From NCBI RefSeq assembly GCF_003952225.1, contig NZ_CP034437.1, positions 4,230,501 to 4,294,500 of the forward strand: 64,000 nucleotides of DNA, in the 5' to 3' direction. Position 1 is the first letter of the stretch. Each line of letters starts with the position of its first letter. Origin of the DNA: Paenibacillus albus. GTDB lineage: Bacteria > Bacillota > Bacilli > Paenibacillales > Paenibacillaceae. The translations under genes were made by a program, and so were the position numbers. This document shows positions 4,690 to 45,167 of this stretch, one piece after another. Below the pieces are notes generated by a model. That model was given only the letters and a program-made list of their open reading frames with translations. It made no database searches and was not told the DNA's origin.

Positions 4690-5244
4690 TTATTGTTTTA
4701 CAAGGTGCTTCGTGTATGGTTCTAGCAAGAACATCAGTTGCTCAGTCGCTTCCTGCGCACTGCAGGGTATAGAATTATGGACCCACCATTCCAATACTCC
4801 AATTAGCCCAGAAGTCAAAAAATGAGTGGTTACGCCATGTGATAACTTGCTGTTTTCTGACTTTACAACGACCACTTCGGTTACTGTTTCGGCGATGGTT
4901 GCATATAAGCGGTTGCGGAAAAATCCAACACCCTCATTGCTGAGAAGCAGCTTGTAGATTGCAAAGTTTTCCTCCAAATATTCAAATAGGCTTTGAAACG
5001 CTCTTGCGTCTAAACGGGTGTCAGTACTATTGGCACAGTAATGCAGCAGCAGCTCAACATAGGCTTCAATGCATTTGTCAAGCAAGTCGAATTTGTCCAC
5101 GTAATGCAGATAGACAGTCCCTCGGTTTATGTTTGCGCGGTCAGCAATGTCATTAATGGTTATTTTCTCAAATCCTTTTTCAGCCAAAAGGTCGATGAAG
5201 GCCTTCATAATCGATTGCCTTGTTTTTTGTATTCTTCTATCCAC
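4690..5244 (-). CDS. TetR/AcrR-family transcriptional regulator
   Basis: DNA-binding repressor of 184 residues. The N-terminal helix-turn-helix is clear (ITINDIADRANINRGTVYLHY, residues about 25-45); the C-terminal helical domain is YbiH/TetR_C-like with no recognisable ligand signature. It starts the operon with the aldo/keto reductase and is divergent from the reductase-like gene at 5402. A perfect palindrome at 5283-5298 lies between the divergent genes and is the likely operator, which would give autoregulation plus control of the divergent gene. Confidence 0.9.
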   Translation of the reverse strand: MDRRIQKTRQSIMKAFIDLLAEKGFEKITINDIADRANINRGTVYLHYVDKFDLLDKCIEAYVELLLHYCANSTDTRLDARAFQSLFEYLEENFAIYKLLLSNEGVGFFRNRLYATIAETVTEVVVVKSENSKLSHGVTTHFLTSGLIGVLEWWVHNSIPCSAQEATEQLMFLLEPYTKHLVKQ

Positions 5245-5282
5245 AGAGGTCCCCTCCAGATATCCAACAAATTAGCGCTATG

Positions 5283-5298
5283 TGTTGAGTTCTCAACA
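5283..5298. promoter_or_regulatory. Palindromic operator candidate (TGTTGAG-TT-CTCAACA)
   Basis: Perfect 16-bp palindrome 39 bp upstream of the tetR start and about 100 bp upstream of the divergent gene. Size and place suit a TetR dimer site. Confidence 0.55.
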
Positions 5299-5401
5299 GT
5301 TCGAACAAATGCAACTATTGAAACTGTCTATTCAAATCAGTACGCTAAAAATATCAAACATCTGATTATAAATCAACATTTGTTCATTAAAGGGGATTGT
5401 T

Positions 5402-6331
5402 ATGAAAATACTTTTTTTTGGTCGCGGTGCTATAGGGACAATGTACGCTTGGGCGTTCGAAAATGCAGGCCATACCGTTGAGTTTTATGTGCGTGAAGGT
5501 AGAAAAGTGCAATATGGCTCACACGTAAACTTAGAGTTATGGGATACAAGGCGGAGCAAAAAAGACCGGATAGTCAAAGAAAAATGGCCTATTGTCATAC
5601 AGGAGGAAATACAGGAGAATCACGACTATGACCTGATATTTATAAGTGTGAACCCCGAGCAAGTATCAAGTGTTGTCAAATACCTTGCGCCTCGAGTCGG
5701 AAACGCAACAGTTCTGTTCTTCAATAATTATTGGCAAGATCCTCAATTAGCTGTTCATCCAATTCCGGCCAGTCAAATGGTATATGGCTTTCCCGGTGGC
5801 GGCGGTGGATATGAAGGAAACACGCTTTACGGTGGGATGTACAAGACCGTTCAGTTTGGAACATATGAATCCGAGCCTACCCCAAGAGATTTAACGGTTC
5901 GCAAGCTTTTTGCCGAGGCAGGCTTCAAGATAACGGTTCAAAAGGATATTCAAAGTTGGCTAAGGAATCACTACGCATTTAACGTTGCTATGGAAATCGA
6001 AGTATTAAAACGTGGAAGTTTTGCAAAAGTAGTCTCTTCACCCGAGGCGCTCACTGGATTAAGTCGTAATCTGAAAGAAATGATCCCTGTTCTGAAAGCG
6101 AAGGGCTCAAAACTTGATGTTATGACAAAGGTGGTAAGCGCCTTGCCATCGAGAGTTGTTGGATTTCTTCTAAGTCACGTTGTTTTTTCACCTAAAGGCA
6201 TGCCCTATGCACTTGTGGAGCATAACCACTATAAAGTGGGTTATGCCGTACAGGAGGTTATATCCGAAGCCAGAAAGCACGGAATAAATGCGCCGAGGCT
6301 TTACGCTGTAGAACACCTAATCGCGAAATAG
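5402..6331 (+). CDS. Ketopantoate reductase (ApbA/PanE)-family protein
   Basis: NAD(P)-dependent reductase-like protein, 309 residues. The N-terminal Rossmann motif GRGAIGT (residues 7-13) and the LIFISVNPEQ strand (about 80) match the ApbA/PanE family, and the C-terminal half is the helical ApbA_C region with an HYAFNVAMEIE segment. Real PanE enzymes have a conserved catalytic Lys and a GN motif that I cannot place with certainty, so a role in pantothenate synthesis is not supported; such TetR-divergent members are common in Firmicutes with unknown substrates. Start chosen from AAAGGGGATTGTT before ATG. Confidence 0.82.
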   Translation: MKILFFGRGAIGTMYAWAFENAGHTVEFYVREGRKVQYGSHVNLELWDTRRSKKDRIVKEKWPIVIQEEIQENHDYDLIFISVNPEQVSSVVKYLAPRVGNATVLFFNNYWQDPQLAVHPIPASQMVYGFPGGGGGYEGNTLYGGMYKTVQFGTYESEPTPRDLTVRKLFAEAGFKITVQKDIQSWLRNHYAFNVAMEIEVLKRGSFAKVVSSPEALTGLSRNLKEMIPVLKAKGSKLDVMTKVVSALPSRVVGFLLSHVVFSPKGMPYALVEHNHYKVGYAVQEVISEARKHGINAPRLYAVEHLIAK

Positions 6332-39470: not shown

Positions 39471-40715
39471 TTATTTGTGAGGATTTATGATTAACTTTCC
39501 ATCAAATGGTCGCCGATTTACTGCCCCTTTCAAAATAACAACATCTTTTAGATTGCGTATATCAAGTGGTTTCCAAGTGCCATCATCATGAGCCTCTTGC
39601 TTCGTCGCACCAGGTTTTAACGTAGGGAGTTTTTGTGGTATTAGTGCCGCAGGGTAACTCTTCCCTCGTTGTTGCGCATATGGCTGCGGATATACGGCAT
39701 CCCGAGGACTCTGAGCAGCATCAATGGCACAATCGGAGATGCATTCTAAATCATTTTGCAAATCTTGCTCGGATTTTAAAATTTCTTCTAAGGTCGCCGT
39801 TCCGGGTACTGTAAAATCATAATTATAATTGTGATCTAATATCCAACTAAGGGTATTTAAAATATCCAATTTCGCGAGTCGTTCGCGAGCACAAAACCGG
39901 ATAATATCCTGTGATTTACGAATTTCTTCTGCATTTAATGGCAAAGGACCATCTGCTATCGAGATTGGACTAAGCAACCACTCGTATGGCACCGAATGCT
40001 TCTCAGGTTCATTAATTAACGCCGCAAACCAATCGTTGGTGAGCTGCAACAATTCGCTTGGATCCGTCGGGTCTTTAAAATGTATAGATGGTCCTCCTTC
40101 TGTATACAACTGACAATACGCTGAAGCTTCGTTTTCTTTTATGGAGCTACTGAGCTTCATTGCAGCATCTGCTGAGAAAAATCCATAAGATCCGTTCATC
40201 TCCGCCTCAATCTTTTGACTCTTGTCGAGACTATTAGTCACGATCTGAATGACTGCAACGAAAACGCCCCCCCGTTTGCAGGCCCGGCAAAACATATCTC
40301 CGTAATGATTGGCGAATATGTCCGGTTTGTCGACCAGCTCGCCAGCTTCAGGGGTAAGCTTGCAATGGTCGATGCTTAAATCAGCCAGTTTAACCGTTGC
40401 CGTAATGGACATGAATATGGAAGACGATGAAACCTTGGTGCTCTCTGCGAAGCTGAAACGCGCAGAAATACCAGCGCCGAAAGAGGCGCACCCATACGAA
40501 GCATTAACGTCGATTCCTAATTGTTTCTCTAATTCTTCCGTACTCGTAATGCGACTCAATGTGAAATATTGACTGGCAGGTCCGGCTGCAAAAACGTTGC
40601 TAGAAGGCTCCGGGACAACGACAAGATTTGCACTAGAACCCGATAAATGCTTTACCCCTACACCGAAATTGAATCCCGCTTTGTGTGGTAGAATCAATTC
40701 TTCCAAAGAAATCAC
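39471..40715 (-). CDS. MACPF-like putative pore-forming protein
   Basis: 414 residues, no signal peptide and no TM helix. Residues 138-150 (YGDMFCRACKRGG) fit the MACPF signature Y-G-x-x-F-x6-G-G, with the usual Thr-His replaced by Asp-Met. It is preceded by amphipathic Ser/Ala-rich stretches (SITATVKLADLSIDH) and followed by QKIEAEMNGSYGFFSADAAMKLSSS, which resembles the TMH regions and SYG motif of MACPF/CDC proteins. The C-terminal 150 residues are a helical then Pro-rich tail. Last gene of a four-gene cassette. Predicted to insert beta-hairpins into a target membrane; assignment rests on the motif and should be treated as probable. Confidence 0.7.
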   Translation of the reverse strand: MISLEELILPHKAGFNFGVGVKHLSGSSANLVVVPEPSSNVFAAGPASQYFTLSRITSTEELEKQLGIDVNASYGCASFGAGISARFSFAESTKVSSSSIFMSITATVKLADLSIDHCKLTPEAGELVDKPDIFANHYGDMFCRACKRGGVFVAVIQIVTNSLDKSQKIEAEMNGSYGFFSADAAMKLSSSIKENEASAYCQLYTEGGPSIHFKDPTDPSELLQLTNDWFAALINEPEKHSVPYEWLLSPISIADGPLPLNAEEIRKSQDIIRFCARERLAKLDILNTLSWILDHNYNYDFTVPGTATLEEILKSEQDLQNDLECISDCAIDAAQSPRDAVYPQPYAQQRGKSYPAALIPQKLPTLKPGATKQEAHDDGTWKPLDIRNLKDVVILKGAVNRRPFDGKLIINPHK

Positions 40716-40758
40716 TCCTTCATTATTTTCCGCGATTTCTGTTACAGAAGCATTTCAT

Positions 40759-41289
40759 TCATAAATGCGTGGGATTCGTACCGTCCTGCGAGAATGTAAC
40801 GGGAACAACTGTACCTGGCTCCGACGATTCCAGGTCAAGGAAGAGCTGGTACAGATCCACGCCCACATACTGCCCACCCGGGGCTCCACCGATAATTTCG
40901 ACCAGCGCTAAATGCAGGTGAGGCGGAATTCCGCCAAAGCTATGCACTCGTCCTAACACGTCGCCGCGAGCGACTGTAGTTCCGACGGCTATTTCTGCCG
41001 GCACATCCGTGAGGTGAGTATAAAAGCCGCCCATCATGTCGTTTGGAGCACGCATAAAAATTTGTGCACCGTACACTTTGCCATTGTCTTGTACCGGGTC
41101 ATGCGGTTGAAACTTCGTGATGTGAGCGTCAAATGCCGCATATACCAAGGTGCCATCATCGGCCCCGAGATCCATACCGTACTGGATATACCAATTCGAT
41201 CCCTGGTGACCTCCTTGGCTTGGTCCGCCAAGCCCTCCAGTAAATCCTGAATTATCGACAGCCATGGATATATCGATATCGAAACTCAT
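40759..41289 (-). CDS. Degenerate M23 (lysostaphin-like) domain protein
   Basis: 176 residues of the duplicated-hybrid-motif fold. D40 (QYGMDLG), H92 (GGFYTHL) and the HLH motif H124/H126 (IPPHLHLALVE) match the M23 zinc site, and GTTVARGDVLGRV is the usual GxxVxxGQxIG strand. The first zinc ligand His is Gln here (Q36). It may therefore be an inactive, peptidoglycan-binding form, or may bind metal differently. No signal peptide. ATGA overlap with the muramidase-type gene upstream, so the two products are made together. Confidence 0.78.
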   Translation of the reverse strand: MSFDIDISMAVDNSGFTGGLGGPSQGGHQGSNWYIQYGMDLGADDGTLVYAAFDAHITKFQPHDPVQDNGKVYGAQIFMRAPNDMMGGFYTHLTDVPAEIAVGTTVARGDVLGRVHSFGGIPPHLHLALVEIIGGAPGGQYVGVDLYQLFLDLESSEPGTVVPVTFSQDGTNPTHL

Positions 41290-41948
41290 TGAATCTCCTC
41301 CTCAACGGGCGACACCGAAGCTGGTAATTGGCTCGCGATCTCAGTTGGTATGTCCGCTGATTCCCACGTAAAACTATCGCCAGGAATAGCGCCTTCGACT
41401 TCTTGGATCTTGTTTTGCATGACCACCATCTGTCCGTCAGTCAGGTCGCCGATCCTAGTATCTACCGTTACGCCCTCATGAGACAAAGCCGCTGCCACGG
41501 TTTCGGCGTATGCGAAAGGGTTATTACCGTCTGACGCAGGAGCATATTTGTTAAATCCGGCTTGAATGGACAGGTCCGCGTAAGCAGGGCTGCGAAGCAG
41601 TGAAGCGATCGCGTTAAATCCATCGTTCCAGGTCGGAAAAATCAAGAAGTTATGCCAGTTGAACTTATCGGGATACTGACCGTAGTCATGCCCTCCGATT
41701 GAGCCGGTGATGTTCCCAGGATTGTTGTTGAGCCACGCGAAGCTGCCTTCATGGTTTCTCATGTGCGGGCGTCCGCGTACGATTTCATCGGCATGGATCA
41801 CGAAATTATAGATTTCCTTTCCATGGCCTAGGTAATCGTTAGGATCATTGGGATTCGAATTCGGGAACCATTGAGCTCTCGGGATGCTCTTCTCAAGTGA
41901 GATATTTCCATTCCAGTACCAAACGTGATCTCCTAGCTCTAGTGTCAT
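41286..41948 (-). CDS. P5-like (NPGNI-motif) muramidase-type protein
   Basis: 220 residues, no signal peptide. Residues about 60-165 carry the pattern of phage structural protein P5 / lytic-transglycosylase-like domains: LNNNPGNITG (73-82), FLIFPTWNDGFNAIASLL and FNKYAPASDGNNPFAYAETVAAAL. Such domains cleave or bind peptidoglycan in phage virions and in toxin-delivery loci. The catalytic Glu is probably in RNHEGSFAW just before NPGNI. A 60-residue acidic tail follows. Second gene of the cassette. Confidence 0.75.
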   Translation of the reverse strand: MTLELGDHVWYWNGNISLEKSIPRAQWFPNSNPNDPNDYLGHGKEIYNFVIHADEIVRGRPHMRNHEGSFAWLNNNPGNITGSIGGHDYGQYPDKFNWHNFLIFPTWNDGFNAIASLLRSPAYADLSIQAGFNKYAPASDGNNPFAYAETVAAALSHEGVTVDTRIGDLTDGQMVVMQNKIQEVEGAIPGDSFTWESADIPTEIASQLPASVSPVEEEIQ

Positions 41949-41985
41949 TTTACGATACCTCTCTCTCAGTAAGTTATTGTTTACG

Positions 41986-42044
41986 GTAACGAAGTCACCT
42001 GTTAGTGCGCATTATTATCTGGTGATAGGTGGTGACTTTGTTAC
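41986..42044. other. Long hairpin inside the MACPF cassette
   Basis: GTAACGAAGTCACC (41986-41999) pairs with GGTGACTTTGTTAC (42031-42044), one wobble, 31-nt loop. No T-tract, so it is more likely a processing or stability element, or a partial terminator that sets lower expression of the three downstream genes. Confidence 0.45.
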
Positions 42045-42081
42045 TCGACGACAAACGGATGACAAAACGGCAACTTCTACT

Positions 42082-43167
42082 TTATGGTGAAATAGATGTT
42101 GGATTAGCTGATGGTGTGAGTAGTTTTTGTTTTATCTGCACATCGCGATATGGAGTCAATATCCAATTTGTAGTCATTATTGGGAAGATATAGCGATAAG
42201 CATCGAATCCCTCGCCAACCTTGATCGGTTTTAGCCAGTTGCTTCCGCCAGTCTTCCAGTCTTTATGCTTATACAGAAGCAATTCGCCGCTATACTCTAG
42301 AGCATAAATAGATCCATTTCCGGTCCCGATAATTTGTTTGAAATCTTGCCAGCTGCTGCCCATCTTCTTGGGTCCATCCCATTCGTCTTTTCCATTTAGG
42401 TAACCTTCATGTTTAAACCAGAATAAAGTTCCGTCATTGGCTACCGCATAGATCACCCCATCTCCGACGGAAACAATGAATTTATAATTCCAATCGGATC
42501 TGACGAGCTTTGGACCCAGCCACTTATCTCCGCCATTATTGAAATCAACGTGTCGATACCAATATAAATTACCATCTGATCCGAGAGCATAGAGAACGCC
42601 ATTGCTTGCAGGTATTATTTTGGCAAAAGACCACGCAGAGCCTACTTGTTCGGGAGCTTTCCATTGATTCGATCCGTCTTTATAACCATCATGCTCATAC
42701 CAGAACAAGTCGCCTCCCGATTTCAAAGCGTAGAAATGGTTATCTCCGGCAGGAAACACATTTGCAAATTCATCCCAACCGCTACCGACCTTTTTGGGAC
42801 CTTCCAACTCTCCTGGTAAACTGGGATCTGATGAGGGTTTATGTTTGTACCACATCAGATCTCCATTATCTTTCACTCCGTATATATATACATCTTTCGA
42901 TGGCTCCTCATCGGGTTTATCTCCGTTGGTTTTGTTAGCGTCATCACTACCTACTGCGTTGTTGTTTTCTCCCTTAGAGTTGGAACCTCCCTGAGAATTC
43001 TGCTTACCGGGATTCCCAGCATCCGTTTCTTGGCCAAAAGCAACGAGCCCAGCCTGGTTAAGCGCAATGATCAAACCGGTTACCGCAGTAATTATTCCAG
43101 CCATTGCTGTCAAGACACCTGGGAGCGTCTGCCACCAAGACTGTGGTTTAGGTGGTTTGCTATTCAT
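42082..43167 (-). CDS. Membrane-anchored five-blade tachylectin-2-like propeller protein
   Basis: 361 residues. N-terminal TM (PGVLTAMAGIITAVTGLIIAL, about 16-38), a low-complexity Gly/Asn/Asp/Lys linker (about 45-88), then five repeats of about 47 residues from residue 90 to 330, each with a YAL..DGDLFWYxH strand, a Gly-rich turn and a W..P..VGSxW segment. Five such repeats match tachylectin-2, which binds GlcNAc/GalNAc. Predicted glycan-binding anchor of the cassette, possibly attaching to peptidoglycan or chitin-like sugars. First gene of the cassette, start ATG after AAAGGGAGAG. Confidence 0.82.
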   Translation of the reverse strand: MNSKPPKPQSWWQTLPGVLTAMAGIITAVTGLIIALNQAGLVAFGQETDAGNPGKQNSQGGSNSKGENNNAVGSDDANKTNGDKPDEEPSKDVYIYGVKDNGDLMWYKHKPSSDPSLPGELEGPKKVGSGWDEFANVFPAGDNHFYALKSGGDLFWYEHDGYKDGSNQWKAPEQVGSAWSFAKIIPASNGVLYALGSDGNLYWYRHVDFNNGGDKWLGPKLVRSDWNYKFIVSVGDGVIYAVANDGTLFWFKHEGYLNGKDEWDGPKKMGSSWQDFKQIIGTGNGSIYALEYSGELLLYKHKDWKTGGSNWLKPIKVGEGFDAYRYIFPIMTTNWILTPYRDVQIKQKLLTPSANPTSISP

Positions 43168-43425: not shown

Positions 43426-43445
43426 AGGTCGAGCTTGTTCTCTGC

Positions 43446-45167
43446 TTATTCATATACCGGCGAACTCATTCTGGAGAAAGAAAACAACACATCGTGCAAT
43501 GCGGGTAATTCCAGATCATGAGGAATATCAAAGCTGTTTGAATAGATGGCATCAAGCCCTTGTTCGGTGAGAAGGTCGAATACTTCTTGAACGGAACGAT
43601 ATAGATTGAATTTCGATTCCCTCGTCCGGTTGGCCAAATATCGGATGATATATGCAATTGTCGCTAATTGCTGCTGTGAAATGATCGTATCCAAACGTGA
43701 TACATCCACCGTATCTTTGCCCAGATGAATCGTATTTCTGCCGACATTCACGTATTCAAAGATCCGATTACTCTCCTCATCCTTTTTGAAAGTGGTTAGA
43801 GAGTCCGTTTTCACCCATCTTTCCAGCTTCCACTGCACCTCATGCTCATCATCTCTATCGTAGAATTCATAGGAATGCTGCCGGAATGGCTTTAATTCGC
43901 GATTGAAGTTATGCAGGGAATAGTTATTCATCATGTACACATTATCAGCCAAGTCCAGATACTCACTGGTTCCGCCAATAATAAGAATGGTAGAAACCCC
44001 CGCTTTGGTATACAAATGACGGACGCGATCCGTAAAAGGGACAATAGGATCATCTTGGATAATTTGCTTCATACGGGAGTCGCGTATCATAAAGTTGGTA
44101 GCTGTCCGGTCTTCATCAATCAGCAATGCTTTGCATCCGAAGGATACGGCCTCGATAATGTTAGCCGCTTGCGAGGTGCTTCCGCTGGCATGCTCGGAAT
44201 TAAATGCCTTGGTATTGGAATGCGGAATATCCCGTATAAAAGGCGTAATGTCCAGGGAGGTTACACTGCGTCCGTCCTCAGCAATGATTTTGCAGCTTCT
44301 CTCTTCGGTTATGCAGTACTCGCGCCCATCCTGGGGAACATGATTGTAAATGCCCGACAGCATACTGTCTAACAGGGTGCTTTTCCCTGAATAGCCGCCT
44401 CCTGTTATAACGGTAACACCTTCTGAGATTCCCATTCCTTTAATGACAAAACCGTCCGATAATGTAAATTCGATTTCATCTTCAGCCGGAGAAATAAAGG
44501 GAACAGCCTTGCCGAGTGGTTTGTCACCTTTCCCCCGCGGGAGAACACTGTTATTGGCTAAGAAGCATACCAGCTTCCGCTCCTGCAATAAAGCTCTGAT
44601 CTCCAACTGTCTTCTATACACGGTATTAAATTGAACGCAGGCATCATTGTCGAAGAAGGCGACAAAATCTCTGATCGCCTTTCCTAATTCCTTTCTCACG
44701 ATCTTCACGGATGCTTTGCCTGCAACAACATTCCGTTTCTCCATCATGTGCACAGGGAAACGAATGACCATCGCGAGATTCAGCATATCATCGTTAAAGA
44801 AACAGCTATTGCGGAAAATTACTTTTTGGTTAGGTTCATGAACGAATATTTTGCCCGTGAATTTCTCTTTCCCCGTCTTATGCTCTTGTGCCAAATCGAT
44901 CTCATTGATAAGTGAACCAAAAGCCCGCAAACAAAAGTCGGCCGTTGATGCATCTAAAGCTCTGTCGCGGTGTTCGAGGTTTAACATCTGGACGGGAATT
45001 TGAAGCGTAAACTTCACAAATTCAGGTCTAGATTTATGCGTTTCATTGCAAATAATCGTGACTCCATTGTAGGAATACACGTTATCGTTTTTATATAAGG
45101 CTCTTAATGATGTCACGTCGGAGAGATCACATGAGCCTAATAATTTGATGAGTCTGTTAATAGCCAT
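43446..45167 (-). CDS. Predicted ATPase of the ABC class (PF09818-type)
   Basis: 573 residues, soluble. N-terminal domain with IPVQMLNLEHRDRALDAS; central P-loop GGGYSGKST (about 257-265); ABC-like LIDEDRTATNFMIRD (about 348), where ATNFM is a family hallmark; and a C-terminal helical region (about 490-560). Not a transporter: no TM and no partner permease. The family occurs in bacteria and trypanosomes (MRB1590, an RNA-binding relative), and its bacterial role is unknown. Stands alone, downstream of an MFS gene. Confidence 0.85.
   Translation of the reverse strand: MAINRLIKLLGSCDLSDVTSLRALYKNDNVYSYNGVTIICNETHKSRPEFVKFTLQIPVQMLNLEHRDRALDASTADFCLRAFGSLINEIDLAQEHKTGKEKFTGKIFVHEPNQKVIFRNSCFFNDDMLNLAMVIRFPVHMMEKRNVVAGKASVKIVRKELGKAIRDFVAFFDNDACVQFNTVYRRQLEIRALLQERKLVCFLANNSVLPRGKGDKPLGKAVPFISPAEDEIEFTLSDGFVIKGMGISEGVTVITGGGYSGKSTLLDSMLSGIYNHVPQDGREYCITEERSCKIIAEDGRSVTSLDITPFIRDIPHSNTKAFNSEHASGSTSQAANIIEAVSFGCKALLIDEDRTATNFMIRDSRMKQIIQDDPIVPFTDRVRHLYTKAGVSTILIIGGTSEYLDLADNVYMMNNYSLHNFNRELKPFRQHSYEFYDRDDEHEVQWKLERWVKTDSLTTFKKDEESNRIFEYVNVGRNTIHLGKDTVDVSRLDTIISQQQLATIAYIIRYLANRTRESKFNLYRSVQEVFDLLTEQGLDAIYSNSFDIPHDLELPALHDVLFSFSRMSSPVYE

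Follow-up and report, generated by a model that had tools for sequence, protein, structure and literature searches.

A probable MACPF/CDC-superfamily protein and a separate hydrolase-M23 module at a four-gene locus of Paenibacillus albus

In the 64,000-nucleotide stretch of Paenibacillus albus DNA analyzed here (the window), four genes of the minus strand encode a tachylectin-like lectin, a peptidoglycan hydrolase, an M23-fold protein and a probable MACPF/CDC-superfamily protein. The hydrolase and M23 genes form a module separate from their neighbors, and the set of four is not a conserved cassette. On balance we lean towards a variable accessory locus made of separate units: a signal-less pore-former of a rare, horizontally spread bacterial family, a signal-less peptidoglycan-acting hydrolase-M23 pair and a membrane-anchored lectin that is probably a unit of its own. 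The pore-former would be released by lysis, and the wall enzyme would aid either that release or access to the target.

The ORFs lie at 43167-42082 (lectin, 361 aa), 41948-41286 (hydrolase, 220 aa), 41289-40759 (M23 protein, 176 aa) and 40715-39471 (MACPF-like protein, 414 aa from a GTG codon). The original prediction described same-strand genes with one ATGA overlap and short gaps; the common strand and the overlap (41286-41289, hydrolase/M23) were found as described, but the gaps are uneven, with 43 nt from M23 to MACPF and 133 nt from lectin to hydrolase (41949-42081). The longer gap holds an imperfect inverted repeat (GTAACAAAGTCACC/GGTGACTTCGTTAC), and its hydrolase-side 62 nt are part of the hydrolase-M23 module. 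Just after the MACPF stop, on the same strand, a terminator-like hairpin with a T run (39480-39425; RNA fold -23.1 kcal/mol) was absent from the terminator-scan output, which placed an 18-pair terminator at 43425-43387, between an upstream ATPase gene and the lectin gene. The sigma-70 and terminator scans gave about as many matches as shuffled sequence (sigma-70, 7 observed versus 7.2; terminators, 5 versus 4.5), and matches to the sporulation promoter consensus were uninformative upstream of the lectin (3 versus a shuffle mean of 1.9), the hydrolase (1 versus 0.75) and the MACPF gene (0 versus 0.1). Three of the four products lack a hydrophobic N-terminus, in agreement with the earlier statement that three lack a signal peptide, as judged by a hydropathy scan and not by a signal-peptide predictor.

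For the MACPF-like gene a TTG at 40706 (411 aa) is the likelier start, since AAGGAG lies eight bases upstream and the relative in genome G007 begins at the equivalent place. The MACPF signature Y-G-x-x-F-x6-G-G was correctly read: YGDMFCRACKRGG is the only match to [YWF]G..[FY].{6}GG in the window (337 stop-free frames of at least 60 aa; 43,326 residues). The same pattern gave 24 matches at other loci; by their letters all of these read as the motif of this family or duplicates of it. Two family members, L007 and L008, depart from the pattern. The placement of the family comes from profiles. A 13-row profile (A7), from which the overt MACPF member had been left out, found as its strongest PDB match Aeg-L (9uj0; E 3.3e-8 over about 200 N-terminal positions), whose aligned letters bear the same signature, and also the solved Mpf2Ba1 (E 7.3e-5 and 1.3e-4). 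A literature search found no publication on Aeg-L 9uj0. When the overt member was included, the profile reached the Gram-negative insecticidal protein 6fbm (5.6e-6), perforin-like protein 1 (0.0035) and, weakly, 2qp2 (0.089). Relative L017 matches the Pfam MACPF model at 69.3 bits and aligns with profile A1 in hhalign (probability 94, E 1.5e-7); a Streptomyces member, which the window protein finds at E 2e-12 in 7.3 Gb searched, gives a sub-cut-off MACPF match (17.5 bits, E 0.0048). The Pfam model matches L017 and misses the other 15 of the 16 family rows scanned, several of them partial, and the window protein by itself had no match to accepted MACPF/CDC members.

Such profile evidence supports the membership of this family in the MACPF/CDC superfamily. 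A MACPF fold for the window protein, which the original prediction expected to see in a confident model, is supported rather than demonstrated: the two AlphaFold models were of low confidence (mean pLDDT 44.9 and 52.7). The four best Foldseek matches of the weak model were stonustoxin, two CDCL entries and Mpf2Ba1 (E 0.012 to 0.073, none significant), and in VIA-align 49 of 50 rows matched one helical stretch, which leaves families missing there still possible. Mpf2Ba1, an insecticidal MACPF protein of Pseudomonas monteilii (PDB 8b6u, 8b6v; PMC10344926), resembles the window protein as a solved bacterial relative with the GG signature, but the likeness is at the level of the family profile, over about 170 positions, and the C-terminal regions differ; nor do the parts of PMC10344926 drawn on here mention a partner wall enzyme.

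The hydrolase can be placed more directly. It carries the NPGN motif, matches a PHROG endolysin profile (1.3e-8) and, as a profile, the solved Enc34 endolysin domain 7q47 (E 0.0027; next unrelated match 0.37). The peptidoglycan-acting NPGN domain of the original prediction was therefore confirmed, but the name P5-like muramidase fits less well than that of an Enc34/PHA02564-like NPGN hydrolase. For the catalytic domain of Enc34 (PHA02564 family) a beta-N-acetylglucosaminidase activity has been proposed (PMC8943055). E185-G186 are invariant in all three aligned rows, and E185 is a candidate catalytic glutamate, for which the counterpart sought was Enc34 Glu131; the 7q47 alignment stops before these residues. 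In contrast to Enc34, a phage lysis protein with a C-terminal transmembrane domain, the window hydrolase has no transmembrane part and is paired with an M23 protein. The latter, which has its own SD-like GAGGAG, matches Peptidase_M23 (PF01551) at 38.7 bits, above the cut-off of 28.7. The zinc site of M23 proteins follows the motif HxxxD...HxH; read by eye, the first zinc-ligand His is here a Gln (WYIQYGMD), as it also is in G265, and the HLH is kept. The site is incomplete, in keeping with the degenerate M23 of the original prediction.

That these two genes constitute a separate module is evident from genome G265, where DNA homology (80.6% identity) spans exactly 40768-42010 and the hydrolase and M23 protein are one fused ORF; G179 matches in pieces at 79-80%. 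Neither genome gave a MACPF match in a single-protein search, although the same search missed fragments in G125 and G285 that a profile later found. Conversely, G007, which holds the nearest MACPF relative and is the sole other MACPF carrier among 22 genomes of the genus, gave no hydrolase match, and the only hydrolase match among the 22 was in the window's own genome. Relatives of the M23 protein and the lectin were found by tblastn at none of 19 other MACPF loci. Conservation of the four genes together, as originally expected, thus fails among the 22 genus genomes, G265, G179 and G007; no other copy of the exact set was found in the genomes searched, and a conserved four-part machine is unsupported.

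The description of the lectin (43167-42082) as a membrane-anchored five-blade tachylectin-like propeller agrees with its Tachylectin match (PF14517, 1.3e-27), its single N-terminal hydrophobic helix (residues 18-36, hydropathy scan) and five repeats counted by eye; sugar binding is predicted. Tachylectins occur in 2 of the 22 genus genomes, and that of the second carrier (G019) is a different protein, away from any relatives of the four genes. The lectin is probably a unit apart from both the hydrolase-M23 module and the MACPF gene.

Three relatives share the upstream ATPase gene (86-92%), with homology ending at 43437-43451, and in the stretch examined beside it they have none of the four genes. 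An insertion island framed by these relatives was rejected, for all three also lack the adjoining germination genes; where ORFs were listed, in two of them, the neighbors of the ATPase gene differ, and consequently no clean empty site can be demonstrated. A prophage-cargo origin is unsupported: the MACPF protein had no match in a phage collection and the hydrolase two distant records, with neither confirmed among viral contigs. Cargo of an extracellular contractile injection system was rejected on a search confined to the sheath family PF04984 (0 of 1 in the organism's own genome; control positive in 3 of 14), and a defence system on PADLOC (0 of 5 proteins). The MACPF family itself is rare and scattered in bacteria, and has probably spread horizontally.

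The narrower idea that a wall enzyme is linked to a MACPF pore-former receives some independent support from loci in other phyla. Strong peptidoglycan-domain links, counted without a matched control, occur at 4 of 21 other MACPF loci. At L033 two PG_binding_1 stretches are fused to the MACPF relative (9e-24), with an Amidase_2 neighbor (2.8e-13); G007 has a PASTA piece (7.4e-5), allotted to it by elimination, and a PG_binding_1 ORF about 3 kb away (25.0 bits versus 23); at L009 an LGFP-repeat gene lies 52 bp upstream (1.1e-49); and at L035 an NPGN remnant abuts the MACPF stop (4.7e-14). This remnant is the sole NPGN match at E 0.001 in its 5.5-Mb metagenome-assembled genome, and by an arithmetic estimate adjacency within 1 kb would arise by chance at about 4e-4 in that genome and at less than 1% over 19 loci. 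The PASTA-like tails of L030, L034 and L035 (Pfam E 0.047, 0.04 and none) were left out of the strong links, and a profile of four such tails reached the PASTA domains of PknB at E 0.26-0.74 only.

In the reading that we favor, the MACPF protein would build up in the cytoplasm and leave by lysis. This could be self-lysis, which the NPGN hydrolase would help along as in a type 10 secretion system, or lysis of the mother cell at sporulation. Once freed it may oligomerize and then insert a beta-barrel into target membranes. The fused peptidoglycan-binding domains suggest that at least some relatives work in part through contact with the wall.

Two alternatives are possible but less probable. In the first, the hydrolase lyses or perforates only the wall of the producer, freeing the MACPF protein, and never acts on targets. 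The absence of a hydrophobic N-terminus from both proteins agrees with this, as does the release of signal-less toxins with a peptidoglycan hydrolase by type 10 secretion systems (PMC10847048), but a hydropathy scan of the four products found nothing holin-like, no holin or spanin is among the four genes, the peptidoglycan-binding domains on the MACPF relatives would be left unexplained, and G265 has the hydrolase-M23 module with no MACPF match. This alternative is a narrower form of the favored reading, and the odds of the two overlap. We know of no type 10 secretion system with a MACPF protein. In the second, which we also hold only tentatively, the genes are chance neighbors in an accessory hot spot, where a pore-former directed against eukaryotes, such as insects or protists, lies beside a lysin module and a lectin that are both unrelated to it. 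The exact module boundaries fit it, as do the insecticidal proteins among solved MACPF relatives (PMC10344926) and the GC content (0.50-0.52 for hydrolase and M23 versus 0.44 for MACPF and lectin, though the window's genes span 0.37 to 0.54); the wall links at 4 of 21 loci, and in particular the L035 remnant, make pure accident less likely.

A narrowed, antibacterial form of the wall-penetrating membrane-attack system first proposed, in which hydrolase and M23 protein open the target wall, the MACPF protein pores the membrane and the lectin provides immunity or docking, is unlikely: the domains fused to MACPF relatives (L033, G007), the amidase, LGFP and NPGN neighbors and the killing of bacteria by Bacteroidota CDC-like proteins (PMC11169675) speak for it, but joint action of all four is not supported, the set is not conserved, M23 and lectin relatives are missing from all 19 loci searched, the M23 zinc site is incomplete, no immunity gene was identified and no strong wall link was seen at 17 of 21 other loci. 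Those Bacteroidota proteins, MACPF/CDC pore-formers with an immunity gene adjoining in one case, are described in the parts of that source used here as two-component, with lipoprotein signal peptides and PF01289. A two-component toxin of that kind was rejected for the window protein, which has no hydrophobic N-terminus, no PF01289 match and one family match in the genome.

A literature search on tachylectin, MACPF and peptidoglycan returned, by title and the start of the abstract, only work on animal immunity, and among the matches listed no title concerned a pairing of MACPF protein and wall enzyme. To our knowledge, MACPF proteins in the strict sense, in contrast to CDC-like pairs, have not been demonstrated to be aimed at walled cells. 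It is a doubtful conjecture that the family and its fused or adjoining peptidoglycan-binding and -cutting partners breach walled bacteria by wall opening and then pore formation; modular docking domains at the C-terminus (PASTA, PG_binding_1, lectin-like) would pick the target. The family largely escapes the Pfam MACPF model yet joins MACPF pore-formers by profile. Its members in Bacillota, Actinomycetota, Alphaproteobacteria and a Planctomycete include some with peptidoglycan modules fused or adjoining; these modules would make the aiming of some bacterial MACPF proteins at walled cells a testable proposition.

The four open reading frames lie on the minus strand, where the original prediction had placed them: a lectin gene (43167-42082; 361 aa) is followed by the gene of an Enc34/PHA02564-like peptidoglycan hydrolase with an NPGN domain (41948-41286; 220 aa), by an M23 gene that overlaps it through an ATGA (41289-40759; 176 aa) and, last, by the gene of a probable MACPF-family protein (40715-39471; 414 aa). 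Pfam identifies an ABC-class ATPase gene (PF09818) upstream and a gerA/gerC/gerB-type germination operon downstream. The latter probably lies outside the four-gene unit, because RNA folding places a hairpin with a T run after the last gene, a structure absent from the list of the terminator scan. That scan reports an 18-pair terminator-like site between the ATPase and lectin genes. The 133 nt separating lectin from hydrolase (41949-42081) carry an imperfect 14-bp inverted repeat with no T run, possibly an operator or the edge of a module. GC content is 0.50-0.52 in the hydrolase-M23 pair versus 0.44 in the lectin and MACPF genes, both within the window's range (0.37-0.54). The genome is a single 6.6-Mb contig.

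Taken alone, the 414-aa protein has no match in Pfam, NCBIfam, PHROGs or the PDB sequences. One relative, at locus L017 (genome G727), is fully matched by the MACPF model of Pfam (69.3 bits), and hhalign places a profile built from five other members against it across the signature, with a probability of 94%. A 13-row family profile without L017 matches two solved structures, Mpf2Ba1 (7.3e-5) and Aeg-L (3.3e-8), the next match standing at 0.38; the aligned letters of Aeg-L contain the signature of the window's family. With L017 included, the family profile also matches 6fbm (5.6e-6), perforin-like protein 1 (0.0035) and 2qp2 (0.089). Predicted structures of the window protein are weak, both from 7 rows (pLDDT 44.9) and from 16 (pLDDT 52.7, pTM 0.33), and the top Foldseek ranks on the weak model are stonustoxin, CDCL entries and Mpf2Ba1, none at a significant score (E 0.012 to 0.073). 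Because profile matches are present but the structure models are weak, we call the protein a probable member of the MACPF/CDC superfamily, an assignment in which we have considerable confidence. At L017 (6190-8558), an endonuclease/exonuclease/phosphatase-family gene lies 2 bases upstream of the MACPF gene.

Judging from the sequence, the window's MACPF gene more likely starts at a TTG at 40706, since AAGGAG lies eight bases before it and the start of the relative in G007 agrees. The product of 39471-40715 has eight cysteines and no hydrophobic N-terminus; several of these cysteines (in MFCRACKRG and FCARE/YCARQ) are common to the G007 pieces and absent from the other alignment rows. Bacterial MACPFs outside Bacteroides are said in PMC2954219 to be without lipoprotein signals, a statement that the signal-less window protein fits, unlike its relatives at L059 (5537-7168) and L008 (7857-9737), which by eye begin with lipoprotein-like signals. 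Relatives occur in 2 of 22 genus genomes (its own counted) and in 4 of 295 family genomes; matches to the five-member profile A1 come from five genomes among 344 of the order and from one among 398 of the phylum. Others lie on three plasmids (Alphaproteobacteria, Deinococcota, Actinomycetota), at 11 loci of genome_contigs and in 3 of 385 genomes around that of the Plastoroseomonas locus L033, itself included. Including the window, this gives 22 known loci, some fragmentary; G198, a genome of the same family, and Paenibacillus castaneae L028, whose proteins have identical first 60 residues, length and neighbours, are counted once.

The expectation that the four genes would be conserved together was not borne out: as far as searched, the set occurs solely in the window's genome. 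By tblastn against 19 other MACPF loci, lectin and M23 protein were found at none and the hydrolase at one, in a test of limited sensitivity, as the MACPF query overlooked its own relative at 7 of the 19; two further MACPF loci, found later, gave no match to the NPGN domain. In three relatives from the genus, which carry the upstream ATPase gene at 86-92% identity, the stretch examined lacks all four genes.

A hydrolase match is present in 3 of the 295 family genomes. G265 carries hydrolase and M23 as a single 401-aa ORF (83% and 87% identity to the window genes) and in G179 both genes are broken; neither shows a MACPF match among the 295 genomes searched and G007, carrier of the closest MACPF relative, shows no hydrolase match, so the pair travels independently. 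The window and G265 are homologous at the DNA level over exactly 40768-42010, a stretch that begins 62 nt ahead of the hydrolase start and stops at the end of M23. Within L025 4501-8059, the fused G265 protein adjoins a Lamin Tail Domain and LGFP-repeat protein (Pfam) and, by eye, an amidohydrolase-like gene. The window's NPGN domain aligns to the catalytic domain of the Enc34 endolysin (7q47; E 0.0027), a domain proposed to act as a beta-N-acetylglucosaminidase with Glu131 as catalytic residue (PMC8943055). E185-G186 is invariant across three rows, and E185 is a candidate counterpart of Glu131; the alignment to 7q47 ends ahead of this pair. The M23 domain scores above the Pfam cut-off, and its catalysis is doubtful because the first metal ligand is Gln, in the window as in G265.

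The narrower idea of a wall enzyme tied to a MACPF pore-former is kept alive by strong wall links at 4 of 21 other MACPF loci (a count without matched control), but no strong link was seen at the other 17. At L033, two PG_binding_1 stretches lie on the MACPF-family protein itself (9e-24) and an Amidase_2 gene lies 0.9 kb away on the opposite strand (2.8e-13). In G007, a C-terminal MACPF piece carries PASTA (7.4e-5, the match assigned by elimination), with a PG_binding_1 ORF (25.0 bits, cut-off 23) ~3 kb from it. At Streptomyces L009, the gene 52 bp upstream encodes LGFP repeats, present also in the neighbour of the G265 fusion. L035, in the Pirellula MAG, has an NPGN remnant that is truncated, lies on the opposite strand and is the genome's single NPGN match; its matched stretch abuts the MACPF stop. 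Sub-threshold matches comprise PASTA-like tails at L030 and L034 and a ricin-type lectin tail at L058 (E 4.7e-5; 24 bits versus 29). Wall domains occur in 3 of 28 selected neighbour ORFs, drawn from 15 of the 21 loci; for scale, PG_binding_1 occurs at 6 places across the whole genome G000. The two members found last, around L033's genome, show no strong wall link; L058 is one of them.

Within L006 1-14065 (contig C34), the broken G007 relative lies among extracellular-type-domain proteins without obvious signal peptide (trypsin-like with TIG, Peptidase_S74 chaperone, hemopexin repeats, PG_binding_1); a 1487-aa protein also encoded there has no Pfam match above cut-off. By eye, look-alike small genes precede the MACPF-family gene in Aurantimonas (L034, 5237-5872) and the Pirellula MAG (5217-5918); they have no Pfam match and may represent a conserved partner.

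Bacterial MACPF toxins, CDC-like antibacterial toxins (PMC11169675) and endolysin-aided release are already known kinds, and bacterial MACPFs have been suggested in print as possible bacteriocins (PMC2954219); in the literature searched we found no report that links a MACPF family with peptidoglycan modules. The hydrolase may be a neighbour unrelated to the MACPF gene, it may aid release of the MACPF protein, for which type 10 secretion offers a precedent (PMC10847048), or it may open the target wall. By our own judgement, as for superfamily membership, a functional link between hydrolase and MACPF protein is tentative and a part for the lectin unlikely. The MACPF gene taken alone is best read as encoding a signal-less pore-former freed by lysis, which would stay in the cell until then and afterwards act on target membranes.
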